64,000 nucleotides of DNA, from positions 240,581 through 304,580 of the forward strand of contig ATMD01000001.1 in the NCBI GenBank assembly GCA_001856825.1, read 5' to 3'. The position numbers were made by a program, and so were the translations under genes. Below the pieces are notes generated by a model. That model ran no database searches. It was not told where the DNA came from and was given only the letters and a program-made list of their open reading frames with translations. Position 1 is the stretch's first letter. Every line of letters starts with the position of its first letter. Below are positions 14,668-33,683 of this stretch, one piece after another. This stretch comes from Thermoplasmatales archaeon I-plasma (GTDB lineage: Archaea; Thermoplasmatota; Thermoplasmata; Thermoplasmatales; GCA-001856825).

Positions 14668-16312
14668 TTTGCACCTATCTTCGCCCTTTTTTAGTACTAC
14701 AACTCAATCTTCAGCTTTTCCATCAACTCTCTCTGCTCCTTGGTGTATTCCACATGCGCATGGGAACCATTAGCGTAAACAACTTCCCTAATGCCTGAGA
14801 TCGTCTCAAGCACCTGATTGTATGTGGTGTTGCACTTGGCTGCCATGATTGCTATCATAGAGTACCCAAGTATTGCCAGGAACAGTCTAGCCCTTGTTCC
14901 CTCTTCAGTTCTAGAGAAGAATGGTTCCAGGTGAGGTTTGATATGTGAGAATGCCTTCTCAACCACGTCCTTCTCCCTGTATATTCTGAGTATCTCGCTG
15001 GCAGGGAACTGCGTGTTGGTGAACAGTACAGTGTAACCAAAGGTGTTCGTTCTCCGCTGAATGGCATTGTGCTTCAGGGTATAGGTGAACGTTAGTTCTG
15101 AATACCTGATATCCACTAGATTCCTGAATCCTTTCAGTCCAGATTCTATTGTTCCTATCATGTCCCTCTGAGAGCGGAATCCCTTCCTGCTCATCATATC
15201 GTTGAGGAATGCCTCCTTCTCTGCAAGCTGTGAATAGAACGATTCCAGCCTCTGTGATCTGAGGCGGGGAGAGAAGTAAACGATGTATCTCTTTCCCCTT
15301 ATCCTCTCCTCCCTGCTGAATATGGTCTCGCTCTGGTACTGTATGTAGTTGCGGGAGTTCTCAATGTCCCTTGATCTGTGGATGAGTTCATCATGGATGG
15401 ATAGCGAGGAAGGGAGAGCGCCAATGACACCGTAGCCCTTCAGGTCTTTGAGATTATCCGCGCTGTAGACCCCCCGGTCGATGACTATGAGTATAGTGAG
15501 GATACCGTAGTCCTTCAGCTCGCCTGAGAATGCATGAATGGTGGATACTGATGGTATGTTGCCCGCGATTGTCCTGTAGTGTATGGGTATGCCATGCTTC
15601 TTAGTTACAGCTAAAACGAAGTTTATCTCCCTGTTCTCCCCATTCATGTGATAATAGTGGCCGTATTTTGCCAGGTCATTGCTGTATCCATAGTACCTTA
15701 TTGCACTCAGGTCATAGACTATTCCAGATGATCCGAATTCCCTTATAAGGTCAGCTGCCATTGATCTCTCCAGTACAGATGCAACGTCCGGGTCCTTCAT
15801 TCCAACCAGCTCAACCACATCCCTGATCTCCTTCTCCTTTAGCTCCGGAATGCCTGAATGCAGGTGGATGGAGTGATCAGGTCCCGCAATCGTTTCCGCT
15901 GCAAGGATCAGAATCTTCTTTGCTGCATCCTTTATGTTTGTTATGCCCAGGAGAGCATCTTCGTAATTGGCAAGGAATCCGTTATCCAGAGCCTGAAGGT
16001 ACATGATGTATCCTGCGGAATCAAGAACATGCCGCACCGTTCTGCGATCCACAGGCGGTATGAGCGTCCTCTCGCCATCCTTCTCAACCTCCTTCCCGAT
16101 ATAGGTAACCTCCTGCTTCACCTTTCCAGTCTCCTTGTCCCTGTAGGAACGCACCCTGCTCAGGTAGGCGTGACCATTCTTGACCTGTCTCCTAATGTAA
16201 GTCATGTAGTATAAATACCACTACAATCTATACAAGACTTTTTGCTACCACGATTGGTAAAATACTGTGTCACCAGAAAAATGTAGTAGTACTAAAGGGC
16301 GAAGTCAGGTTT
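14668..16312 (-). mobile_element. Intact IS4/IS1634-like insertion sequence, about 1.64 kb
   Basis: The ends share an inverted repeat: CTTCGCCCTTTTTTAGTACTAC at 14,679-14,700 matches the reverse complement of 16,286-16,304 (CTTCGCCCTTTAGTACTAC). Weaker pairing extends outward (TTGCACCTAT versus TTGCAAACCTGA). Outer limits are approximate and no clear target duplication is seen. It contains one complete transposase gene and separates the CDP-sugar part of the locus from the convergent glycosyltransferase genes. Confidence 0.8.
14697..16205 (-). CDS. IS4/IS1634-like transposase (DDE)
   Basis: A 502-residue DDE transposase of the Transposase_11 type. The N-terminal domain (VKNGHAYLSRVRSYRD, then EVTYIGKE) is followed by the catalytic Asp in GIVYDLSAIRYYG, the second Asp in ILIVIDRGVYSADN, and the Glu signature YREKDVVEKAFSHIK (Y-2-R-3-E type). 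A C-terminal helical part follows. It is full length without stops and so likely functional. The stop lies within the left inverted repeat, so the gene fills the element. The dead copy at 4474-6029 is a distant relative. Confidence 0.9.
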   Translation of the reverse strand: MTYIRRQVKNGHAYLSRVRSYRDKETGKVKQEVTYIGKEVEKDGERTLIPPVDRRTVRHVLDSAGYIMYLQALDNGFLANYEDALLGITNIKDAAKKILILAAETIAGPDHSIHLHSGIPELKEKEIRDVVELVGMKDPDVASVLERSMAADLIREFGSSGIVYDLSAIRYYGYSNDLAKYGHYYHMNGENREINFVLAVTKKHGIPIHYRTIAGNIPSVSTIHAFSGELKDYGILTILIVIDRGVYSADNLKDLKGYGVIGALPSSLSIHDELIHRSRDIENSRNYIQYQSETIFSREERIRGKRYIVYFSPRLRSQRLESFYSQLAEKEAFLNDMMSRKGFRSQRDMIGTIESGLKGFRNLVDIRYSELTFTYTLKHNAIQRRTNTFGYTVLFTNTQFPASEILRIYREKDVVEKAFSHIKPHLEPFFSRTEEGTRARLFLAILGYSMIAIMAAKCNTTYNQVLETISGIREVVYANGSHAHVEYTKEQRELMEKLKIEL

Positions 16313-20990: not shown

Positions 20991-21051
20991 GCTATTAGAA
21001 TGTCAATTTGTTCTATGTGAAATTTTAATATATTTAGTTTCGTGTTAAAAT

Positions 21052-21562
21052 ATGAAGACAATTGTAACTGGCATGTCATACCAAGATTGGTTCTTCCTCT
21101 CCCAGTTGTTGTCCAAGGGTTACGGAGTTCATGACGCTTTCAGGAGAAACAGTTTGATGAGCGGTGGGACGATGGAATTGCAGCCTCCAGAGATAAAAAA
21201 ACAGATAATCATTCATTACGGCGATATCACAGACGAGAATTTATTGTCGAAGTTATTACAGTACGACATCCAGATGACTTTGTGATGGGAACTGGTAAAT
21301 CGCATACCGTTGAGATTTTGTTGACAAGGCCTTCAGCATCGTAGGAAAGAATGTTAAATGGATAGGGACTGATATCAATCAAGTTGGTCTTTCCTACGAA
21401 GGGAAAGTTTTAGTCAATGTAAGTAGGGCCTTCTACAGACCACTGGAGTCAGAAAATTATAGGGCGGATTTTTCAAAGGCACGTGAAAAACTCGGGTGGG
21501 AACCAAGGGTCGAGTTTAAAGAGCTTGTGAAGTTAATGGTAGAAAGTGATATAAAGGCGTAA
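21052..21562 (+). pseudogene. GDP-mannose 4,6-dehydratase remnant with large internal deletion
   Basis: The first 75 codons (MKTIVTGMSYQDWFFLSQLL, HYGDITDENLL) match the N-terminus of Gmd-type dehydratases, although the cofactor loop is altered. After QYDIQ the frame changes and the next readable part is the C-terminus: HPDDFVMGTGKSHTVEILL, then, after a further shift, FSIVGKNVKWIGTDI and a tail with FYRPLESENYRADFSKAREK and LGWEPRVEFKELV. Some 200 central residues, including the YxxxK site, are missing. An intact Gmd has 330-370 residues. It is a dead gene that once supplied GDP-4-keto-6-deoxymannose. A TATA-like element (TTTTAATATATTTA) survives about 25 bp before the ATG. Confidence 0.82.
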
Positions 21563-21607
21563 AATACATAATAAATTATAAATACATTTAATCTATCAAA
21601 AACAACA

Positions 21608-22393
21608 GTGCAGTCCATTGAACTCCAGAATATTATGATGCCTTCAACAACGATAATTATTCCCGCGTACAACGAAGGGAAGAGGATAGGCAGAGTTCTG
21701 GAGGAGATCGCAGATTTTGTAACTGTAAACAATCTGAAATGGGACGTGATTGTATCAATCGATGGAAGCGATAATACCAAAGAAATAGTCGAAGACTTTT
21801 CCAAGGAGTATACCTTCGTAAAATATGAGAGCGGAAGAGGTCGCAGTGGTAAAGGGTACGCGATTAAGAGGGTGGTAGACAAGTCCACGGGAGAGTTCAC
21901 TCTGATAGCGGATGCAGACGGTGCAGTAAGCCTTCAGGACATTCTTAATGGACTTCCCTACTGTGGTACTTAACATGCTATACTATTCGATAGGTATTCC
22001 GCCAATGGAAATGTTATTCCGTTATACAGGAGAATCCCATCAAGGGGATTCAACATACTCGTCAGGGCTATACTAGGACTTAAGGTTACGGACACCCAGT
22101 GTGGTTACAAACTTGTGAGGACAAGCATTATTAAGGAAGCATTTAAAAGAACCGGTGTTACCAACACATTTTTTGATGTCGCACTGCTGTACCATATTCA
22201 AAGAATGGGCGGAAGGATAAAGGAGATTGAGGTAAAGTATTCGCACAGAGACGAGAGCAAGTTCAACATTATGGGTGAAATACTAGGTCAAGGTGTCTCT
22301 CTTCTCGCTTTCAGGATTAGGCACTCAAGATTTTACAAATACGTTCCTAAAAGGGCAACAGAACTATACCTGAGAAAATTCAGGTGGATCTAG
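21608..22393 (+). pseudogene. GT2 dolichyl-phosphate-sugar synthase-like gene interrupted by one stop codon
   Basis: The gene reads in a single frame from GTG at 21,608 to 22,393, with one TAA at 21,971-21,973. Before the stop: TTIIIPAYNEGKRIGRVLEE, the DG site VIVSIDGSDNT, SGKGYAIKRVV and LIADADGAV (DxD). After it: FDRYSANGNVIPLYRRIPSR, then GFNILVRAILGLKVTDTQCG and YKLV, the acceptor-side motif of DPM1/ALG5-like enzymes. About 260 residues in all, as expected. The stop falls where homologues have a variable loop, so decay is recent. A TATA-like ATTATAAATAC lies about 28 bp upstream. The 3' end overlaps the convergent epimerase gene by 14 bp. Confidence 0.8.
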
Positions 22394-23306
22394 AATTCTT
22401 CTCAGCACGTTCTGAAATCTCCTTTATCATTTTTTTCACGCCGTCTCTTATGCCGTACCTGGCTTCAAATCTCAACTCCTCCCTCGTCTTGCTCATGTCC
22501 GCAAGCGTGAATTGCTGATAACTTTTCAGCGGATTGGGCACATGTTCAGCTTCTCCTTGATAGCCCATCTCTTCCTTTATTATGCGAAATATTGTGTTGA
22601 AATCAGTTGTTTTACCGGTTCCAACGTTATACGATTGTCCAGAAGTCCCATTGTTCATCGCTAGCAAAGATGCTCTGGCAGTATCCTCAACATATATGAA
22701 ATCCCTCCTCTGTGTTCCGTCGCCGAAAATTACAGGTTTCTTGCGGTTTCTTATGGAATCTATGAATTTCCATATAACGCTCGAATATTCCCCCTTGCTG
22801 TTCTCTCCTACGCCATAGGTATTGAAATATCTGAGAGATACTGTTTCAAGGCCATATTCGTTAAAGAGTCTCGCGGTCATCTCATTTATTCTTTTTGTTA
22901 TTGGGTAGAAGTTGGAATATACAGCAGGTAGCTCGGACTCCCTTGCCGCCTCCCTGATATCTCCGTATACTGAGGAGGAGGAAGCAATTATCACCCTCTT
23001 CACGTTGTTCTTAGCGCTAGCTGCCAGGACGTTGTAGGTCCCCATGACGTTCACTTCATACCCCTCTCCTGTCAGATTCTCAAATTCAGGCGGTGAAGTC
23101 ACGGCAGCAAGATGGAAAACGTAATCGATTCCGCTGCATGCCTTCTCAAGCATTTTTAAATTACGGACGTCGCTCATTATGTGGTAGTCTGAAACAGAAT
23201 TCTTGTCCCTTATGTCATAGGTACCAACTGTATTGCCTTCCTCCTTCAGCATCTTTACTATATTCCTTCCAATGAAGCCTGAACCTCCTGTCACTAGAAT
23301 GTTCAT
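22380..23306 (-). CDS. NAD-dependent nucleotide-sugar epimerase/dehydratase (GalE-like), copy 1
   Basis: A 308-residue extended SDR enzyme. The NAD loop VTGGSGFIGRN is at residues 5-15, and FHLAAVTSPP and IIASSSSVYGD follow. The catalytic YPITK (Tyr and Lys) is near residue 137, and RRDFIYVEDTARA is near 200. Such enzymes epimerise or dehydrate UDP-, GDP- or ADP-sugars; the substrate is unknown. The first 122 residues are identical to the paralogue at 27,083-27,985 and encoded by identical DNA, whereas the C-terminal 180 residues differ widely. The identical tract also covers the upstream region, so both genes share the same start context. Confidence 0.88.
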   Translation of the reverse strand: MNILVTGGSGFIGRNIVKMLKEEGNTVGTYDIRDKNSVSDYHIMSDVRNLKMLEKACSGIDYVFHLAAVTSPPEFENLTGEGYEVNVMGTYNVLAASAKNNVKRVIIASSSSVYGDIREAARESELPAVYSNFYPITKRINEMTARLFNEYGLETVSLRYFNTYGVGENSKGEYSSVIWKFIDSIRNRKKPVIFGDGTQRRDFIYVEDTARASLLAMNNGTSGQSYNVGTGKTTDFNTIFRIIKEEMGYQGEAEHVPNPLKSYQQFTLADMSKTREELRFEARYGIRDGVKKMIKEISERAEKNSRST

Positions 23307-23344
23307 CAGGAATCATAACCATTGGAATGATAAATGTGTATCTG
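22975..23344 (-). repeat. 370-bp perfect direct repeat, copy A
   Basis: Bases 22,975-23,344 are identical to 27,654-28,023 in the same orientation, by direct base-by-base reading. The tract covers the first part of the epimerase gene and 38 bp upstream of its ATG. Divergence is abrupt on both sides. Confidence 0.95.
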
Positions 23345-23426
23345 TTTAAGCTGAACAGTCCATAGTCACCATATTTCCTGAATTCGACTGAGAATATTTA
23401 TTAATACAGAGGTATTCTTTTCATGT

Positions 23427-24413
23427 ATGCTCAACAGGATGGTGATGACCAGAGCACCTTTGAGGATAACGTTCGTGGGCGGTGGAACTGATCTTCCTTT
23501 CTACTACGAGAAGAGGGACTATGGTGCAGTGGTATCATCCGCCATCAACAAGTACATCTACGTTACTGTGAACAGGAAGTTCGATAGCAGCATAAGGATC
23601 AGCTATTCCAAAACGGAGATAGTTGATTCTGTGGACAGAATAGAACATCCAACTATCAGGGAATCCCTAAGGCTCTTGGGTATAGAGAATGGCATAGAAA
23701 TTGTAAGTATCTCTGATATCCCGTCTCGAGGGACTGGTCTTGGCTCAAGCAGCACTTTTCTGGTAGCACTTCTCCATGCCCTCCACAGTTACAAGGGAGA
23801 ATTCGTCAGTGCTGAGGAGCTGGCAAGGGAGGCGGTAAGGGTCGAAAGGGAGATACTCAGGGAGGAGGGAGGGAAGCAGGATCAGTACATTGCAGCATAC
23901 GGTGGAACCAATTTGATGAAATTCAGGAGCGACGGAAGCGTCGAGATAGTAAATGCCGTATCTCACGACAGTAATTTGAAGAGGGTAGAGGAATCATTGC
24001 TTCTCCTCTACACCAACAGGGAGAGAAGTTCAACAGAGATACACAGAGACCAGATTGAAAATTCATCTGAAAAGATGAATGTATACGATGAAATGAAGAA
24101 ATTGGCGGATGGGACGCTCAAGGCCATATGCGACGGCGACCTTGACACGCTGGGTGAATTGATACACAAGAACTGGATGATGAAAAGATCGCTATCCAGG
24201 AGGATAAGTGACAGTTGGATAGACGAGAAGTATGAAATAGCCCTAAAACTCGGCGCCAAGGGAGGAAAACTGGTTGGTGCGGGCGGTGGTGGTTTTCTTC
24301 TGCTTATAGCAGAGCCGGAGAAGCACAGAAACATTGCGAAACAATTAGACCTCAGGAAGGTTGATTTCGGATTCAGCCAGTCTGGTAGCAGGGTGATATT
24401 TGTTGGAGAATGA
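23427..24413 (+). CDS. hddA: D-glycero-D-manno-heptose-7-phosphate kinase (GHMP kinase)
   Basis: A 328-residue GHMP-family kinase. The HddA-type N-terminus is TRAPLRITFVGGGTDLPFYY (residues 8-27). The ATP loop is SRGTGLGSSSTFLVALLHAL, GGKQDQYIAAYGG follows, and the C-terminal GHMP motif is GAKGGKLVGAGGGGFLLL. It would phosphorylate sedoheptulose-derived D-glycero-D-manno-heptose 7-phosphate to the 1,7-bisphosphate for GDP-heptose synthesis. The ATG at 23,427 follows a TATA box (ATTTATTAATAC, near 23,400) by about 27 bp; a second ATG four codons in is also possible. The gmhA start overlaps its end, consistent with one pathway. Confidence 0.88.
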   Translation: MLNRMVMTRAPLRITFVGGGTDLPFYYEKRDYGAVVSSAINKYIYVTVNRKFDSSIRISYSKTEIVDSVDRIEHPTIRESLRLLGIENGIEIVSISDIPSRGTGLGSSSTFLVALLHALHSYKGEFVSAEELAREAVRVEREILREEGGKQDQYIAAYGGTNLMKFRSDGSVEIVNAVSHDSNLKRVEESLLLLYTNRERSSTEIHRDQIENSSEKMNVYDEMKKLADGTLKAICDGDLDTLGELIHKNWMMKRSLSRRISDSWIDEKYEIALKLGAKGGKLVGAGGGGFLLLIAEPEKHRNIAKQLDLRKVDFGFSQSGSRVIFVGE

Positions 24414-24969
24414 TCATAACTTGTTGGAAAAGTATGTTTCAGACGGAATAGAAGCAAGAAAGTCTATCGAAGTTTCTGCTGTTATAACCGTCTCCGAGAT
24501 ACTTTTCGATAGACTTAAAAAAGGTGGGAAACTCATAACGTTCGGCAATGGAGGATCGGCAGCGGATGCACAGCACTTTGTAGCCGAACTTTCTGGTAGG
24601 TTTATGAAAGAAAGAAGGTCCTTTCCTGCCGTCGCACTTACAACCAACAGCTCTTCCTTGACAGCTATAGGAAATGACTACGACTTTTCTAAGGTGTTCT
24701 CAAGGCAGCTTGAGGGAATATGCGCCAAGGAAGACTTTGTGGTTGGGATCAGCACTTCTGGCAACTCTCCTAACGTCATAGAAGGCATTAGAACTGCCAG
24801 GAAAATCGGTGCATTTACCCTTGCACTGACTGGAAGAGATGGTGGAAAGGTAAGGAATGAAGCAGACAAATGCATCTGGGTCAACTCTGATGTTACCCCC
24901 CTGATTCAGGAAGTACACATTGCTATCATTCACATGATATGCTATTCCTTCGATGCAATGCTCGAATAG
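24400..24969 (+). CDS. gmhA: Phosphoheptose isomerase (SIS domain)
   Basis: Converts sedoheptulose 7-phosphate to D-glycero-D-manno-heptose 7-phosphate. A single SIS domain of about 189 residues: LITFGNGGSAADAQHFVAEL (about residues 45-64), LTTNSSSLTAIGNDYDF, GISTSGNSPNVIEG (about 118-131) and a C-terminal QEVHIAIIHMIC, all standard in GmhA. No ATG is in frame early; TTG at 24,400 or 24,403 would overlap hddA by about 11-14 bp, and a later TTG is also possible. The 3' end overlaps a convergent epimerase gene by 28 bp. Confidence 0.88.
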   Translation: MLENDHNLLEKYVSDGIEARKSIEVSAVITVSEILFDRLKKGGKLITFGNGGSAADAQHFVAELSGRFMKERRSFPAVALTTNSSSLTAIGNDYDFSKVFSRQLEGICAKEDFVVGISTSGNSPNVIEGIRTARKIGAFTLALTGRDGGKVRNEADKCIWVNSDVTPLIQEVHIAIIHMICYSFDAMLE

Positions 24970-25862
24970 AGAAGTTTTAGCCCCTTATCCAGTGTAACTC
25001 TTGCAGAGAATCCTATTTCCCTTTTCGCTTTCGATGTGTCTGCCTGTGTTACCATCACGTAATTCTTGACAGGCATCCTGACGTACTTAGGTTTGATTTT
25101 CCTTCCAGTTACCTTCTGTAACCTTTCTACCGCTTCGTTTAGCGAATAACTCTTACCTGTTCCAACGTTGTAGACGTTGAATCCCCTTGCTGATGAAGCT
25201 TTCTGTAACGCATCGACAACATCACTCACAAATACAAAGTCCCTGCGCTGTTCACCATCTCCATATATGACCGGCCTTTCGCCTTTCAACATTGCACTCA
25301 TGAATTGCGTCAGCAGATTGGAATACACCCCTTTCCCTATGTCGTTGTACCCATAAACGGAAAAGAACCTCATGGCTGCAACATTCACATCATGGAGCTT
25401 GGCATATAACTCACCTAGCCTTTCACAGGCTATTCTGGCTTCAGTATAGTAATCAGTGACCCCAGGAATAACGCTTTCCTTGTGCGGTGGGGATATTCCG
25501 TTATAAATGGAAGAGGTGGAAGCGAAGACTATGGGTATATTGTATTCCTTGCCGTATTCCAGGACGTTAGTGATGCCATGTATTACCTCACCCACTAGAT
25601 TTGGGTTTTCTCTATACATTGGAGATGCGGAGTAGATGCCTAGGTGGAAGATGTAATCGAAATCCTCTTTCATCTTCTTCACATCCTTTGCATCCCCCTT
25701 CACGAAAGCAACTCCGTTCTCTATTGCCCCCTTAATGTTGCTCTTCTTTCCAGTGTGAAGATTGTCAAGTACCGTGACATCATTATCCCTGTTCAGACTT
25801 TCCACCAGATTGCTGCCTATGAATCCGGCCCCACCAGTAACAAGTATTTTCTTGTCTTTCAC
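24942..25862 (-). CDS. NAD-dependent sugar epimerase-like SDR with YxxxR active site
   Basis: A 306-residue extended SDR protein. The NAD loop is VTGGAGFIGSN (residues 8-18), FHLGIYSASP and FASTSSIYNG follow, and a RRDFVFVSDVVDA segment lies near residue 205. At the catalytic position the sequence is DYYTEARIACERL, so the usual YxxxK reads YxxxR. The other two epimerases here keep Lys. The change may alter or lower activity, or mark a different reaction. Placed between gmhA and hddC, it probably works on a GDP-heptose or a derived sugar, by context only. It is convergent with gmhA and overlaps it by 28 bp. Confidence 0.82.
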   Translation of the reverse strand: MKDKKILVTGGAGFIGSNLVESLNRDNDVTVLDNLHTGKKSNIKGAIENGVAFVKGDAKDVKKMKEDFDYIFHLGIYSASPMYRENPNLVGEVIHGITNVLEYGKEYNIPIVFASTSSIYNGISPPHKESVIPGVTDYYTEARIACERLGELYAKLHDVNVAAMRFFSVYGYNDIGKGVYSNLLTQFMSAMLKGERPVIYGDGEQRRDFVFVSDVVDALQKASSARGFNVYNVGTGKSYSLNEAVERLQKVTGRKIKPKYVRMPVKNYVMVTQADTSKAKREIGFSARVTLDKGLKLLYSSIASKE

Positions 25863-26012
25863 AGTGAGAAATATCTATGGGGTATAAAATAACTCTGACC
25901 TGCCTATAGTGCCTTTGTGTTGTTTAAATCTGAAAGGCGAACGAATCTAAATGTTGTAAGAGCTAAAAGCAATCTTTGGAATCAGGGTGCATATATGAAT
26001 TCAGTCTCAACA

Positions 26013-26702
26013 TCAGAACTTCCTTCCAATGAAGATTTTCTTTATCTCTTCGTAGTCCTTGACCGTATCAACTGGCTTCCAGAACCCCCCGTATTTGTAG
26101 GCTGCAATCTCACCTTTAGAAGCAAGCGATTTGAATAGCGATCCTTCTATGCCTCTATCAGCAAAATTTCTCCTTAAGGTGGATTTTATTTCTCCCCTAA
26201 GGAAGTACGTACCTCCGTTCACATAATATGGAAGTAAAGGTTTCTCATCAAATTTCTTAACAGTATTCCCTTCTACAGAAACTATTCCGAAAGGACTCCT
26301 CATCCTAACCACTACTATTGTTGCAAGTTTTCCTGTATAGTGAGAATATTTTATGAATCTTCCAAGATCAACATCACAAACAGTATCACCATTCCTAAGA
26401 AGTACATCTGATTCAATTTTTGAAAATAGGTTACGCAGTGCCCAAAGAGTTCCCATCGGTTCCTTCTCCCTTAGATAGTGAATCCTGATTCCATTCCATT
26501 GGGTGCCGTACCTTTTCACTATGGTATCTCCCTTGTAGCCTATTAGCATATATACTTCATTCAATCCCGCAGATTCAAAATCGTAGAGTTGCTTGTCTAG
26601 TATAACGAAATCGTCTCTAAGGGGCAGCAGTACTTTCGGGAGTTCTGGATCGACTGATTGCATTCTCTTTCCGTACCCTCCAGCGAATATCGCCCCAATC
26701 AT
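26013..26702 (-). CDS. hddC: Nucleotidyltransferase, probable heptose-1-phosphate guanylyltransferase
   Basis: A 229-residue sugar-phosphate nucleotidyltransferase. The loop IFAGGYGKRM (residues 5-14) is followed by LPKVLLPL. EKEPMGTLWALRNLF (about 80-94) and LLRNGDTVCDVDL (about 101-113, with the metal-binding Asp) come next, and VNGGTYFLRGEI and GFWKPVDTVKDYEE lie near the end. The features fit the HddC/RmlA-like group. Together with hddA and gmhA it would complete GDP-D-glycero-D-manno-heptose synthesis, apart from the bisphosphate phosphatase, which is not in the window. A different NDP-sugar product cannot be excluded. Confidence 0.75.
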   Translation of the reverse strand: MIGAIFAGGYGKRMQSVDPELPKVLLPLRDDFVILDKQLYDFESAGLNEVYMLIGYKGDTIVKRYGTQWNGIRIHYLREKEPMGTLWALRNLFSKIESDVLLRNGDTVCDVDLGRFIKYSHYTGKLATIVVVRMRSPFGIVSVEGNTVKKFDEKPLLPYYVNGGTYFLRGEIKSTLRRNFADRGIEGSLFKSLASKGEIAAYKYGGFWKPVDTVKDYEEIKKIFIGRKF

Positions 26703-27082
26703 CGAAGGAAATTCCCATCTTGGCGATAAATGTTTGCAAAGTCAGAATTGGGACATGGCCACTTGAGGAACTGGGTAGTAAATGAGATTTAAAATTGAAA
26801 ATATCAAGATGATTGAAGGAGGTTATAGTTCAGAAGCACGGAAGTACAGGATAAGAATTGATGGATCCAAAAGAAGGATAATGGTCACACATCTCAACTG
26901 AATTCACATTCCTAAAACTTCCACCCATTCTCACATATACCTAAAGTATTCCGGGTATCTATCATCATTCCAGAAATTTCAGATTCAATTTAGGAATGAA
27001 CAACATTCTCTTGTTCTAAAAGGTTGAGATTTTCAATTATGAAATGGATATCATCGGTCTCTAAAATCCTTCATTTTTCCGT
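26703..27082. other. Gene-poor 380-bp stretch with one tiny open frame
   Basis: The stretch between hddC and the second epimerase is AT-rich. One plus-strand frame (26,782-26,901, 39 codons, basic, with KYRIRIDGSKRR) has an ATG but no TATA box or clear ribosome site, and it could be a decayed gene. Otherwise nothing is seen. Confidence 0.3.
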
Positions 27083-27985
27083 CTATTTTTCCGTCAACGC
27101 TTTTATCGTCTCCCTAATGCCAGTCAACAAGTCGAATTCAGGAATGAAATTCAGGTGATCTTTAGTGTGTGATAGGTCCGCCTGAGTGAACTGCCTGTAG
27201 TTCTTGATTGGTGTTGGAACGTACTCCACAGTTCCCTCATAATTCATCTCTCCCTTTATTATTTCGAAAATTCTGTTAAAATCAGTACTAACTCCTGTTC
27301 CAACATTGTAGACATCTCCCGCTTTCCCGTTCTTCATTGCAAGTATGGATGCTCTTGCAGCGTCCTTTACGTATATGAAATCCCTGCTCTGCGTACCGTC
27401 TCCGTATATCACAGGCTTCTTCCCATTCCTGATACTTTCAATGAACTTCCATATTACGCTCGAACTTTCTCCCTTGCTATTTTCGCCCATGCCGTATGTG
27501 CTGAAATATCTTAGCGTCACTGTCTCCAGCTTGAAATTATTGAACAATGCTGCAGTGACCTCCCCTATTCTCTTGCTCAGCGGATATAGATTCAGATATG
27601 TTTCAGGTATCATAGATTCCCTTGCAGCTTCTCTGATATCTCCATATACTGAAGAGGAGGAAGCAATTATCACCCTCTTCACGTTGTTCTTAGCGCTAGC
27701 TGCCAGGACGTTGTAGGTCCCCATGACGTTCACTTCATACCCCTCTCCTGTCAGATTCTCAAATTCAGGCGGTGAAGTCACGGCAGCAAGATGGAAAACG
27801 TAATCGATTCCGCTGCATGCCTTCTCAAGCATTTTTAAATTACGGACGTCGCTCATTATGTGGTAGTCTGAAACAGAATTCTTGTCCCTTATGTCATAGG
27901 TACCAACTGTATTGCCTTCCTCCTTCAGCATCTTTACTATATTCCTTCCAATGAAGCCTGAACCTCCTGTCACTAGAATGTTCAT
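27083..27985 (-). CDS. NAD-dependent nucleotide-sugar epimerase/dehydratase (GalE-like), copy 2
   Basis: A 300-residue extended SDR enzyme with VTGGSGFIGRN at the N-terminus, the catalytic LYPLSKRIG (Tyr and Lys) and SRDFIYVKDAARA. Residues 1-122 are identical to copy 1 at 22,380-23,306. From residue 123 on, the sequences diverge to paralogue level (MIPETYLNLYPL here). The border falls between the NAD-binding half and the catalytic Tyr, so the two proteins share the cofactor part and differ in the substrate part. The product specificity may therefore differ. The substrate is not known. Confidence 0.88.
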   Translation of the reverse strand: MNILVTGGSGFIGRNIVKMLKEEGNTVGTYDIRDKNSVSDYHIMSDVRNLKMLEKACSGIDYVFHLAAVTSPPEFENLTGEGYEVNVMGTYNVLAASAKNNVKRVIIASSSSVYGDIREAARESMIPETYLNLYPLSKRIGEVTAALFNNFKLETVTLRYFSTYGMGENSKGESSSVIWKFIESIRNGKKPVIYGDGTQSRDFIYVKDAARASILAMKNGKAGDVYNVGTGVSTDFNRIFEIIKGEMNYEGTVEYVPTPIKNYRQFTQADLSHTKDHLNFIPEFDLLTGIRETIKALTEK

Positions 27986-28023
27986 CAGGAATCATAACCA
28001 TTGGAATGATAAATGTGTATCTG
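27654..28023 (-). repeat. 370-bp perfect direct repeat, copy B
   Basis: Identical to 22,975-23,344. The two copies bracket hddA, gmhA, an epimerase and hddC (4.3 kb), so recombination between them could delete or multiply that cassette. Confidence 0.95.
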
Positions 28024-28210
28024 CTTTTGCAATAAAACGGGTCGATTCTAACTTATCAGGTATTCCAGAGGTATCGGTTATAACATAAAAAGCATCCTTT
28101 TCCGTAAATGTTTCAATAGCGTCAAGGTCATTTATGGATATACGTGCATTGCCAAGAAATAGAAATACATGCAGACAGAAAGTTCACCTAAGGCACAGAT
28201 ATCTGGTAAA

Positions 28211-28245
28211 TTCTTATATATTAATATTCAATAAATTAATCGCAA
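28211..28245 (+). promoter_or_regulatory. Promoter of the surface-protein gene
   Basis: TTCTTATATATTAATATTC (28,211-28,229) has a strong TATA element centred about 26 bp before the ATG at 28,245, implying a leaderless or nearly leaderless message. Confidence 0.6.
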
Positions 28246-31200
28246 TGAAGACCAATAAAGAGAATTTTAAGACTCAAACTTTCAGAAATAAAAGAATCGC
28301 AACGGTATTCCTCACTGCAGTCATGATTCTTAGCGTTCTTATGATATTGACGGTCGGTACGCAGCCATCTTATGCTGCAAGCGGTTCAGTCACATACGAC
28401 CCATCTGTTTTCACTAACGGACAGTCCACTCTGGTGGTAGCAAACGGTGGCACATTCACGGCAGGCTCCACTGTTTACTTCTACGTCAGTTCGACTGACA
28501 CTTTTGGAACATCTTCCGCACAGGTAGGTTCCTACACACTGCCCACTGGAACAACAAGCCTATCGAATGCAGTGTTCCATGTTACAATATCAGAAACTCC
28601 TGGGACGTACTACATAGCTGCATCCGATGACAACAGGGCAACTTTTACCTCCGGGTCACAGATAGTGGTGACCGCACTTTCCCCATCCATAAAGATGTCA
28701 TCCTCTGCGACTGCTGGTGGAACTGCTATGGTAACTGGCAGCCAGTTTGACCCTGGATCTACAGTGGACATCTACCTCCAGTATGCTGGCGGCCAGGTAG
28801 TTGCGAGCAACGTGTTGGCCGCAACAGGAAACTTCTCGACGACAATCAACATCCCAAATGCATTATACCAAACATCTTCCACATATTACGTTGTTGCACA
28901 GGAAGTATCATCATCTTCCCTCAACAGCGGAATAACTGCTTCCACCTCATTTACAGCCCTACCATCCATAAGCGTATCTCCCAGAGATATTCCCATGGCT
29001 GCATCATCCACGATCGTGGTCAACGGTTACGGTTTCAACCCGGGAGCTTCAATATCTGCAAATTCAGTTACATTAACAGCTCAGTCTGGAAGCATAACGG
29101 GAGAATCTAACGCAGCATCTACTGTTAACACGAACGGTCAATTCTCTTTGACCGTGAGCTTTGATTCTGCAAGTGCAAACGGAGGAGCGGTAACTGTAGG
29201 AATCAGCACGAGTCCTTCATCATCATCCTCTTCTTTTCCCAATGCCCTCTATGTATCTCAGTCAAATGCAACTTCTCTTGGATTCAATTTTGCTGTAACC
29301 CCCACAACTGGCTCAACCTATAATGTTGGAGATTCGTTCACAGCAACCGTATATAATTTCCCTGCATCACAGAACGTTGAATTCTATCTGGGAACTACAG
29401 AAGTGGGATCAACGTCGACAGACAGCAATGGGTTTGGGCAAGTCACATCAACAATCCCTGCGCTTCCAGGAAACACTTATTATCCAACTGCTGAAGTGAG
29501 CTCCATGGGACTGTACAAGCAGTCCACATCCCTAACAATCTCCCCGGATTTCATGGTTTCAAATCCGGGGAACGTAATTATGACAAGCAATCCCTCCGAG
29601 TACATTCCGTCCAATGCCGTGCTAACTGTCACAGCTTACGGGCTGAATCCTTCTGATACTTACAACCTTGATGACTCACTTGTAGCATCTGGCGGAGTCT
29701 ATTCCTCTGGAGCGTCTAATCTTGTTACGTCCATCTCAGTGGGAACTGCAAGTTCAAGCGGAATCTACCCAGCTGTAAACGGAACTCTGATTTTCAGCTA
29801 CAGTCCCTCATATGCCACAACAACCACAGGGTCAACGGCTACACTTACGATGACTGGTATTTCCGCTTACGATGGTTATACATTCAGCTACAAGACAATA
29901 GGTGCACCAACAGTATCTTCCCCTTCATCATTCAGCATTTTAACACAGGGAACGAGCAGCACAAGCCTGACAGTCAGCGGACTGATACCGTTTGAATCAC
30001 CTGTGTATCCAGGGATATCTTATTACTACTCAGCGTTCATGGGTTCAACGGCACTTTCCCTAACTTTCAACAGCATCACTAGCACTAGGGTATATGCAAG
30101 CGGGGGATCATTCAGCGGTACGTTCACAGTTCCCTATCTCTCTGGGGCTCTGGACCTTAACATTACTTATTCAGGTGCTACCTATTCAAGCAGCATAGCA
30201 ACCCAATATGTGGTAATATCAACACAGAGCACATCCTATTCATCAGGGACACTGCAAATAATTCCCTTGAGCACTGCCGGCAATTATGAGGTAGTGGGGA
30301 ATGACTACTACAACAAGAATCCGAAGCTCTATTACACGACTTATGCAGGTCCACAGTTGCAGGGAACGGAAAGCCTCACAAATGGTGCGTTTGCTGTTCA
30401 GGTCTCTCCGGGAACGAGCAACCCAGCAGGCACATATTCAGTGTTTACGGAACTTTCCAGCGGAGGGTTGACATATTTCGTCTATTCATCATACACAGTA
30501 ACGGCTAACCTCACTCTGCTCTCGACCTCAGGTGGAACGACTCAGATTTACAGCGGTCCAATAGGAACTGCACTTTATGTGAAGGCTGGAGGACTAGTGC
30601 CGCAAAGCTACTACAATGTATACTTTGGGTCAACGCTTGAGCTTACGGATACTGGGACAAATCTTGCTGCGGGGACGGATTCGTTTAATGTTCCTACATC
30701 AGTCCCTGGAACCCACGCAGTTACAGTTGTTCCGGTCGGATCCACCACATCAGTTGAATCAGCAGTGTTTGATGTGACGTCAAATCCTGACCTGACACTT
30801 GTCACGGACAGCAACTACGCTTTCCCTGGTGAACTGGTGCAATTCACTGTGTCTGGAATGGGAACACCAACATTCCCTTCGGGATTTACAGCTGGGTCAA
30901 CTCCTACCTATACAGTCACTGTGAATCTGAATGGAACTCCGTATGTATCGGTTCCGGCTTTCTTGCTTTCTTCGGGCAAACTAACGGGGGCCTTCCTGAT
31001 GCCAAATTCGAATCCCGGATCATATTATCAACTGACATTGTGGGCTAATGAAACGGCCTCTGGCAGCTACACTTTTTCAACCACACCCGGCACTCAGACT
31101 GGATATACTACACTGACTGAACCGTTTCCCCACTCTCAAAGCGACTATCTCGGGCTCGTTTCAGGCAATGGTGCCTTAGTAACCGGAATATCGCAGTCAC

Positions 31201-31769
31201 AGATTGCCCAGCTTGAAACTGACATAAACACAACTCTTTCAGTACCGATTTCTCAGCTGGATGCATCCGTGACGAGCATCCAGAATAGCGTAGCTCAGAT
31301 AACAACTGCTTTCGGTACAATGCAGGCATCCCTCAAGACTATAAACGCAACAGTTACATCAATAAACTCAGGCGTTGCAACACTTCAGACTACTCTTGGA
31401 CAAGTCTCGACATCGCTGAGCTCCCTTAATTCTACAGTGGTTGCTCTCAATGGGGATACGGCCAAGATATCAACAGCGGTCGGCGTGTTCAGTACTACAA
31501 TCAATAACATCAACGCAACCGTGACGCTCAGCAACGGCAACATTGCAACTATCAAGACAGATTTGGGAACGTTTACGGGGAACGTGACGAGTGTATCAAA
31601 CGGAATTGCTACCATTCAGACCAGCCTTGGGACGATAACTGCAAACACTCAGTCAACGGCCTTCCCTACTGGAATGCTCTTCATACTGGAGATTGTGATA
31701 CTCGTCCTTGCGGTAATTGCGGTAGCTTTTTCTGCGGTTGCAATGATGAACACAAGGAAGAAATACTGA
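28245..31769 (+). CDS. Large S-layer-like surface protein
   Basis: About 1,174 residues. The N-terminus has a basic start and one hydrophobic helix (ATVFLTAVMILSVLMILTVG), then QPSYAAS, a likely signal peptide cut after Ala. The body is rich in Ser, Thr, Gly, Tyr and Asn, with repeated beta-domain units and many N-x-S/T sites. About 140 residues before the end lies a coiled-coil-like part with repeats of the type TINATVTSINSG and SLSSLNSTV. A final helix (GMLFILEIVILVLAVIAVAF) ends in RKKY and anchors the protein. This layout (secreted, stalk, membrane anchor) fits archaeal S-layer proteins. The ATG at 28,245 fits the TATA box; the open frame upstream to 28,134 lacks a signal peptide. Confidence 0.78.
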   Translation: MKTNKENFKTQTFRNKRIATVFLTAVMILSVLMILTVGTQPSYAASGSVTYDPSVFTNGQSTLVVANGGTFTAGSTVYFYVSSTDTFGTSSAQVGSYTLPTGTTSLSNAVFHVTISETPGTYYIAASDDNRATFTSGSQIVVTALSPSIKMSSSATAGGTAMVTGSQFDPGSTVDIYLQYAGGQVVASNVLAATGNFSTTINIPNALYQTSSTYYVVAQEVSSSSLNSGITASTSFTALPSISVSPRDIPMAASSTIVVNGYGFNPGASISANSVTLTAQSGSITGESNAASTVNTNGQFSLTVSFDSASANGGAVTVGISTSPSSSSSSFPNALYVSQSNATSLGFNFAVTPTTGSTYNVGDSFTATVYNFPASQNVEFYLGTTEVGSTSTDSNGFGQVTSTIPALPGNTYYPTAEVSSMGLYKQSTSLTISPDFMVSNPGNVIMTSNPSEYIPSNAVLTVTAYGLNPSDTYNLDDSLVASGGVYSSGASNLVTSISVGTASSSGIYPAVNGTLIFSYSPSYATTTTGSTATLTMTGISAYDGYTFSYKTIGAPTVSSPSSFSILTQGTSSTSLTVSGLIPFESPVYPGISYYYSAFMGSTALSLTFNSITSTRVYASGGSFSGTFTVPYLSGALDLNITYSGATYSSSIATQYVVISTQSTSYSSGTLQIIPLSTAGNYEVVGNDYYNKNPKLYYTTYAGPQLQGTESLTNGAFAVQVSPGTSNPAGTYSVFTELSSGGLTYFVYSSYTVTANLTLLSTSGGTTQIYSGPIGTALYVKAGGLVPQSYYNVYFGSTLELTDTGTNLAAGTDSFNVPTSVPGTHAVTVVPVGSTTSVESAVFDVTSNPDLTLVTDSNYAFPGELVQFTVSGMGTPTFPSGFTAGSTPTYTVTVNLNGTPYVSVPAFLLSSGKLTGAFLMPNSNPGSYYQLTLWANETASGSYTFSTTPGTQTGYTTLTEPFPHSQSDYLGLVSGNGALVTGISQSQIAQLETDINTTLSVPISQLDASVTSIQNSVAQITTAFGTMQASLKTINATVTSINSGVATLQTTLGQVSTSLSSLNSTVVALNGDTAKISTAVGVFSTTINNINATVTLSNGNIATIKTDLGTFTGNVTSVSNGIATIQTSLGTITANTQSTAFPTGMLFILEIVILVLAVIAVAFSAVAMMNTRKKY

Positions 31770-32432: not shown

Positions 32433-33683
32433 TTGACCCACCTTTGGAAATCACCCGGCACAAAAAGAACGATATTGTGGTCTTATAACCCATCTCCCAT
32501 TGTGCTGCAATATTTAGAAGACATGAGGGAAGCAATCAGGTACGGGGTTATGAAATCATATCTTCAATGGAAGAACAGCGGATACGTGCCCTCCCCCATA
32601 GACCTGAGGAGAGAGATGAAGCCGTGGTTTGATTCTCGCTATAGCTACGCGAAACACCACATCAATCCTGTGTGCAGGTCCTCCGTTGCAATATTGAAGT
32701 CATTCATAAAGAATCACCAACAGAAGAGGTACCCTGAGGTAAGGAGACTCTCAATCAGACTGGATTCAAAACTAGTGAAGATTGCTGGTGACAAGATAAG
32801 GATAACTATCAGGCCTGGAGAATACGACTACATCACTATCAACGCACGAAACAAGAAATGGAGGGAGTATTCAAAGTACAGGATAGGTGAGGTTCTCATA
32901 ACGGATAAAATAATTGCCATATCGTTCATATTTCCAAATAATGATCTGAGCGATGAAAAGGTTGGTATCGACATCAACTTTGGATCAATAGTCGGAACAG
33001 TCGTGAATAAGGGCGAAGTAAAAGAAACGTTCACAGAATACATTCCCAACATAGCGAGGATACAGAATGACTTCTCTAGGAGGAGGCGCCAGTTACAGAA
33101 GCACATAAAAAACAAAAAGAAGAGGTACAAGAAACTCAAAGAGAGTAGGGGAAGACAGAGGAACAGGATAAGAGATTCCCTACATAAACTCTCTTCTAAA
33201 ATTGTCAGTAGGCATCTCAAATCGACATTCATCCTTGAGGACTTACGAACAATTAAAAGAAATTCCAATAACAAATCAAAGAAACTGCGAACTTATCTCA
33301 ACAGGTGGCCGTATTCAGAATTCCAGAAAATGTTGGAATACAAGAGTCAATTCAGGACCGTATACGTGAATCCAGAAGGGACTTCGTCAAAATGTCCTGT
33401 TTGTGGTGGTAGACTTGAGCATCCGGTCTGGAAGATGTCTCGATGTAAAAACTGTGGTAGAGATTACGACAGGGACAGGCTTGCTTCGCTCGCAATAACC
33501 CTTCGTGGCCTCTATCTTTGCGGAGATCCGTTCCCCGTGAGTGCGATAGCCTCTTTACCATCAGTGAGGAATGAATACCTGTACATCAACCACAGACCTG
33601 ATGTGGCTGAAGCAGGGGGGACTGAGATGGCAAATGCTTCGAATATCCTTGTACAAGAAAGTATAAGATCTCAAGAATGGTAG
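32433..33683 (+). CDS. TnpB-like RNA-guided nuclease (IS200/IS605-family OrfB)
   Basis: A 416-residue protein. An N-terminal helical and wedge-like part is followed by a split RuvC core: Asp in EKVGIDINFGSIVG (about residue 182), Glu in TFILEDLRTI (about 270) and Asp in GRDYDRDRLASLAI (about 350). A zinc ribbon (CPVCGG then CKNCG) lies between the last two. All three catalytic residues are present, so the nuclease may work. The start is TTG at 32,433, preceded by GAGGGG at 8-13 nt. No TnpA is nearby. The stop codon lies inside the first eroded tRNA copy, and no hairpin typical of an omega-RNA end follows, so the right end of the element seems lost. The 348 bp between the tRNA and this gene hold no other gene. 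Confidence 0.85.
   Translation: MTHLWKSPGTKRTILWSYNPSPIVLQYLEDMREAIRYGVMKSYLQWKNSGYVPSPIDLRREMKPWFDSRYSYAKHHINPVCRSSVAILKSFIKNHQQKRYPEVRRLSIRLDSKLVKIAGDKIRITIRPGEYDYITINARNKKWREYSKYRIGEVLITDKIIAISFIFPNNDLSDEKVGIDINFGSIVGTVVNKGEVKETFTEYIPNIARIQNDFSRRRRQLQKHIKNKKKRYKKLKESRGRQRNRIRDSLHKLSSKIVSRHLKSTFILEDLRTIKRNSNNKSKKLRTYLNRWPYSEFQKMLEYKSQFRTVYVNPEGTSSKCPVCGGRLEHPVWKMSRCKNCGRDYDRDRLASLAITLRGLYLCGDPFPVSAIASLPSVRNEYLYINHRPDVAEAGGTEMANASNILVQESIRSQEW

Follow-up and report, generated by a model that had tools for sequence, protein, structure and literature searches.

How did two epimerase genes come to be identical base for base over their front parts when the rest of their sequences has diverged? 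This question is raised by a 64-kb window of Thermoplasmatales archaeon I-plasma (contig ATMD01000001.1, positions 240,581 to 304,580), in which epiA and epiB, two predicted extended short-chain dehydrogenase/reductase (SDR) nucleotide-sugar epimerases, flank a cassette of heptose-like genes (Table 1; positions are those of the window). From this one genome, in one assembled form, we consider it probable that the front half and core promoter of epiB were replaced by those of epiA through gene conversion, and probably at least twice.

Extent, edges and structure of the shared tract

The two repeat copies sit at the 5' ends of epiA and epiB, both of which are read leftward. They match at 370 of 370 bases, in direct orientation and with an offset of 4,679 bp, and the match is maximal at the same coordinates at which a first-pass annotation of this DNA had reported it. 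No other exact repeat of at least 25 bp, direct or inverted, was present in the 64-kb window, and a third full copy was not found in the genome. Upstream of the repeat, identity drops at once to the random level (0.34-0.42). Downstream, it falls to paralogue level (approximately 63% of nucleotides across the C half), as had also been described for the remainder of both genes. The change is abrupt: none of the 370 bases of the repeat differ, versus 7 of the 40 coding bases that follow (Fisher p = 5e-8). The earlier account of the repeat as the part binding nicotinamide adenine dinucleotide (NAD) plus 38 bp of upstream DNA was correct, except that identity between the two proteins runs further than was noted, to residue 124.

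At its 5' end, the repeat carries the core-promoter-like element CAGATACACATTTAT, for which the only exact matches in this genome are those upstream of epiA and epiB. The orthologues compared have a form close to CAGATAnAnATTTAT, spaced identically from their start codons and altered at one or two positions in some cases. An ATTTAT box lies about 24-29 bp ahead of the ATG, which we take to be the position expected for the archaeal core promoter of a leaderless transcript. Because the 5' edge coincides with this conserved element and because of the placement of the box, the repeat probably consists of a core promoter plus the cofactor half of the enzyme, the shared 38 bp presumably acting as promoter. 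The edge itself is probably the limit of family-wide homology.

The 3' edge was examined on an AlphaFold model of epiB (mean predicted local distance difference test score 89, predicted template modelling score 0.89). Exact nucleotide identity stops at codon 110, where strand beta5 with the catalytic serine motif SSS ends. Amino acid identity continues into the loop ahead of the helix with the catalytic YxxxK and stops there. Because identity ends at these two points, the tract would bring the NAD-binding half, and the recipient would retain its own Tyr-Lys helix and substrate lobe. In its C half, epiB has two replacements (N161S and Y173S) at positions conserved in all other rows of the alignment, suggesting a changed substrate. 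Presumably, epiA and epiB act on different substrates.

Silent sites, trees and two probable transfers

Selection on the protein was ruled out as the cause of the N-half identity. Over the same stretch, epiA differs from its orthologues L034 and L035 (both in genome G011) at 36% and 41% of silent sites despite 99% identical proteins, so constraint cannot explain why the N halves of epiA and epiB show no difference at 74 synonymous sites (pS, the synonymous divergence, of 0). At the 95% level, their silent divergence is at most 4%, roughly one tenth of that from G011. The C halves are saturated at silent sites (pS 0.83), with a nonsynonymous divergence (pN) of 0.25. In the C-half tree, epiB falls outside the epiA clade, and the approximately unbiased (AU) test rejected both a clade of epiA with epiB (p = 0.005) and the placement of epiB with the epiA clade (p = 0.0075). 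The trees of the two halves are thus in conflict, the N half equating the genes that the C half refuses to group. Because of the saturated C halves and the AU rejection, epiB appears to be an old paralogue or xenologue with an overwritten front half, and not a recent duplicate of epiA. Recent gene conversion, already put forward in the first-pass annotation, would explain the N-half identity, and the contrast between 0 of 74 silent differences and a saturated C half, together with the AU result, bears it out. That annotation had opposed conversion to a chimera made by domain exchange. Both descriptions hold, but not as alternatives, since epiB would be chimeric through conversion.

The relatives recovered by protein search, all Thermoplasmata/Thermoplasmatales metagenome-assembled genomes, indicate which copy is native. 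Both halves of epiA and its upstream DNA match the nearest orthologues along their full length. An epiA orthologue is divergent from hddA, followed by gmhA, in five loci (L034, L041, L042, L044, L045), and epiC and hddC follow in most of them. At L041 of G011, the surface-protein gene comes directly after hddC, and blastn colinearity with the window stops at 26737 and restarts at 28199. The segment of about 1.46 kb bearing epiB is therefore either an addition in the window or a loss in L041. The neighbour of the surface-protein gene is hddC in L041, epiC in L048 and epiA in L045. Two small open reading frames flanking epiB (26783-26902 and about 28024-28145) had no relatives in 41 genomes.

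Over codons 111-124, the two genes show a second level of silent divergence. The proteins are identical there, and 7 of 40 bases differ, all silently. The residues REAARES of this stretch are confined, besides epiB, to epiA, L034 and L035 (L047 has one change), and those of the other family members, including L042, L043 and L046, are different. At three silent positions, epiB agrees with L034 and L035 and not with epiA. This makes two apparent tract ages within epiB (0/370 and 7/40), the older one covering 14 codons. Because codons 111-124 keep residues of the epiA clade yet carry seven synonymous differences, an older transfer reaching codon 124 or thereabouts probably preceded the recent one. 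As these residues are clade-specific, the older event would have run from the epiA lineage to epiB; the latest one probably ran the same way, although the direction of the older event is the better supported.

These observations suggest the following history. Within one family of nucleotide-sugar epimerases, epiA and epiB would be paralogues that diverged long ago and came to flank the heptose-like cassette, and ectopic homologous recombination without crossing over would have replaced the 5' half and core promoter of epiB with those of epiA. An older conversion, extending to about codon 124, may date from the time at which the G011 lineage split off, or from earlier. A recent one would then have covered 38 bp of upstream DNA and codons 1-110, overwriting the older tract up to codon 110. 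The outcome would be a pair of enzymes that share the NAD-binding half and core promoter but whose C halves (catalytic Tyr-Lys and substrate lobe) evolved separately.

Other same-genome copies were also compared. The L034/L035 pair, from one binned genome, showed a mild effect of the same kind (N-half pS 0.29, C-half pS 0.49, Fisher p = 0.008), possibly reflecting co-binned strains. G011 contains four separate epiA-hddA divergent pairs (L034, L035, L040, L041) in one bin, representing either a true multiplication of sugar cassettes or co-binned strains. Within the epiA clade (epiA, L034, L035, L042, L043; alignment A1), N halves share 94-99% protein identity and C halves only 73-83%, a contrast that is missing or reversed in more distant pairs. 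Between epiA and L042/L043, the N-half silent sites are nearly saturated despite the high protein identity.

Competing explanations

Several points weigh against repeated conversion. With a single genome, collapse of two near-identical N halves by the assembler could underlie the 0/370 result. A native, pre-conversion epiB was not found when 117 genomes of the order were searched with the epiB C half, and none of them had a C-half orthologue above 66% identity. The older episode is based on only 14 codons. An N half of epiA type was already present in epiB, so the sequence gives no independent proof of which way the latest event ran. Finally, a single domain swap, joined at its 5' side without homology, could have given rise to the chimera in the first place instead of conversion.

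This last idea can be extended to the whole pattern, the 5' half and promoter of epiA being placed once, and recently, in front of the epiB C half by domain exchange or partial duplication. Upstream of position -38, the loci show no relationship (identity 0.36-0.39), which resembles a non-homologous junction, and L035 has a degraded IS110-family transposase (231-1550 of that locus) inserted between its hddA and epiA genes, a few bases away from the counterpart of the repeat 5' edge. However, a single recent joining leaves codons 111-124 unexplained, with their shared clade-specific residues and seven silent differences beside 0/370. The 5' edge also falls at the limit of the family-conserved promoter-like element, which is where a tract bounded by homology should stop. 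We therefore regard a one-off chimera as improbable.

An assembly artefact, in which similar N halves were collapsed to one consensus or a second copy was misjoined, is less credible again. In its favour, the 1.69-Mb genome is a draft in six contigs with 93% completeness, and repeats that are nearly identical do get merged by short-read assemblers. Both copies, however, lie in one 550-kb contig with unique flanks, those of copy 1 matching the orthologues, and each gene is an intact frame through a junction whose position makes structural sense. A collapse would still leave N halves far closer to each other than the C halves are. An artefact thus seems very unlikely.

The first-pass annotation had also raised the possibility of a phase-variation switch at the surface. 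In this reading, the direct repeats would let hddA, gmhA, epiC and hddC leave the chromosome as a circle, here of 4,679 bp, and a surface sugar would be switched in this way. Homologous crossing over between identical direct repeats at this distance could indeed delete the cassette, which adjoins a surface-protein gene; the predicted product loses 4,679 bp (hddA, gmhA, epiC, hddC and the epiB C half) and keeps an intact epiA frame under epiB upstream DNA. Moreover, on the stretches of L049 and L050 that were retrieved, a single epimerase occurs and hddA does not, and the L048 locus is reduced. The switch is nonetheless unsupported and very unlikely: direct repeats cannot invert, so deletion would be one-way and permanent unless the circle reinserts, no recombinase or invertase gene lies between them, relatives hold the cassette with a single epimerase of the epiA/epiB type, so that the repeat is not part of the cassette design, L048 retains epiC and hence is not a product of these repeats, the assembly, for which no reads or further strains were available, contains the full form only, and no excised form was found among the related loci.

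The locus and its known counterparts

Table 1. Coordinates of the repeat, the epimerase genes and other features of the locus in the 64-kb window
Feature	Position	Strand	Remarks
Repeat copy 1, 370 bp	22975..23344	-	Codons 1-110 of epiA plus 38 bp upstream
Repeat copy 2, 370 bp	27654..28023	-	Codons 1-110 of epiB plus 38 bp upstream
Core-promoter-like element upstream of epiA, 5' end of repeat	23330..23344	-	
Same element upstream of epiB	28009..28023	-	
epiA codons 111-124, putative older-transfer stretch	22935..22974	-	Amino acids as in epiB; 7 synonymous differences
epiB codons 111-124, counterpart in the putative older tract	27614..27653	-	Residues REAARES
epiA, extended-SDR nucleotide-sugar epimerase/dehydratase, 308 aa	22380..23306	-	Pfam Epimerase 6.9e-54; conserved orthologue, probable donor lineage
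epiB, 300-aa chimeric paralogue	27083..27985	-	N half of epiA type; C half of an old separate lineage
hddA-like GHMP sugar kinase	23427..24413	+	NF049969 2.4e-47, 162 bits, under cut-off 600
gmhA-like sedoheptulose-7-phosphate isomerase (SIS)	24400..24969	+	TIGR00441 186.5 bits, cut-off 209
epiC, third SDR epimerase, distinct from epiA/epiB	24942..25862	-	
hddC-like sugar-1-phosphate nucleotidylyltransferase	26013..26702	-	PF00483 1.5e-17; NF049965 64.9 bits, under cut-off 300
epiB-bearing segment without counterpart in syntenic L041 (hddC to surface-protein gene)	26738..28198	.	blastn colinearity
Probable secreted/anchored surface protein, 1211 aa, adjoining epiB	28134..31769	+	

Between the repeats, we found the hddA-, gmhA- and hddC-like genes and the third epimerase that had been annotated earlier as a heptose-like cassette. 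Homologues of the isomerase, kinase and nucleotidylyltransferase of the heptose pathway are thus present, all scoring under the curated thresholds for heptose families. Neither epiA (175 bits) nor epiB (174 bits) reached the cut-off of 274.6 for TIGR02197 (ADP-glycero-manno-heptose 6-epimerase), and a search of the genome for a GmhB-type phosphatase with the HAD-phosphatase model TIGR01656 gave no match above cut-off. Because of these scores and of the negative GmhB search, we call this set only a likely heptose cassette.

Adjoining epiA, a family 2 glycosyltransferase gene (21497-22390) has an in-frame stop near 21971 and looks like a recent pseudogene; the L035 copy is intact (299 aa). Between it and a GT4 gene, at 21050-21560, lie apparent remnants of an SDR sugar dehydratase/epimerase broken by deletions and frameshifts. 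An IS1634-family transposase (14697-16205) and a Cas12f-like TnpB/OrfB (32433-33683) stand on either side of the glycan region.

A complete ADP-heptose pathway, tied by its authors to surface glycosylation, has been reported for Iplasma among the Thermoplasmatales of acid mine drainage (PMC3750248). As far as the parts of that account considered here go, its cluster resembles this locus in its heptose-type biosynthesis genes and archaeal order, differs in being complete where no GmhB-type match above cut-off was obtained here, and is presented without any half-gene conversion. According to another article, Thermoplasma-type N-glycans are modelled with D-glycero-D-galacto-heptose, and Thermoplasmatales are without a paracrystalline S-layer (PMC12448462), whereas PMC3750248 reports S-layer genes. 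Since these two sources disagree, we do not name the 1211-aa surface protein an S-layer protein. With heptose in the N-glycans as modelled there, it would be reasonable for several epimerases to work on a heptose precursor. The enzymes themselves have the fold and the SSS...YxxxK layout of extended SDR nucleotide-sugar epimerases (PDB 6dnt and 4zrm; TIGR02197), the best match to the model being 6dnt (template modelling score 0.91). They are only 29-34% identical to the best solved members and, at 175 bits for a TIGR02197 cut-off of 275, their exact reaction is putative.

Is the half-gene pattern found elsewhere? In protein identity, the N half exceeds the C half by 37 points in epiA/epiB; the next same-genome pair, L034/L035 (G011), reaches 18. 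Pairwise comparison within the multi-copy genomes G011, G049, G090 and G095, and within G005 at the nucleotide level, gave no pair approaching epiA/epiB, nor was a second species with such a pair found in the order. Contigs ending within the N half (L022, L023, L046, L047) were considered as repeat-broken assemblies and dropped, the L046/L047 overlap being 80% identical and coverage about 1.3-1.5x. One could imagine a modular epimerase pair, its promoter core and NAD half kept identical by repeated conversion with an edge near the beta5/YxxxK loop, its substrate halves free to diversify, and the half-gene serving as an exchangeable cassette for new surface-glycan sugar specificities; we think this rather unlikely. 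If recurrent, the process would give archaea a route to diversify nucleotide-sugar enzymes with a uniform cofactor half.

The half-gene conversion at epiA/epiB appears real and well defined, and it belongs to the known phenomenon of gene conversion between paralogues. A survey of recurrent concerted evolution in prokaryotic paralogues covered 26 genes, including tuf, mtmB and flagellin genes (PMC6053082), and the word "epimerase" is absent from its text. As in those cases, the copies are closer to each other than to their orthologues through gene conversion; here, the effect is confined to half of the gene, and the signs of recurrence come from a single lineage. An annotation based on the N-terminal part alone would wrongly make epiB an orthologue of epiA. 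The closest precedent is the concerted evolution of mtrA-1 and mtrA-2 in methanogens, in which one domain has been homogenised by long-lasting gene conversion and the other differs (Wang et al., 2015, PMC4632066). Both are pairs of archaeal paralogues with one homogenised domain and one that is distinct between the copies. The mtrA genes lie in one operon and show the pattern across many species and over a very long time, whereas epiA and epiB represent one genome, encode sugar epimerases, flank a 4.7-kb cassette and share a tract that includes a promoter-like element. Beside that precedent, epiA/epiB offers a clean example of conversion confined to half an enzyme gene, with an edge near the loop between the cofactor and substrate halves.

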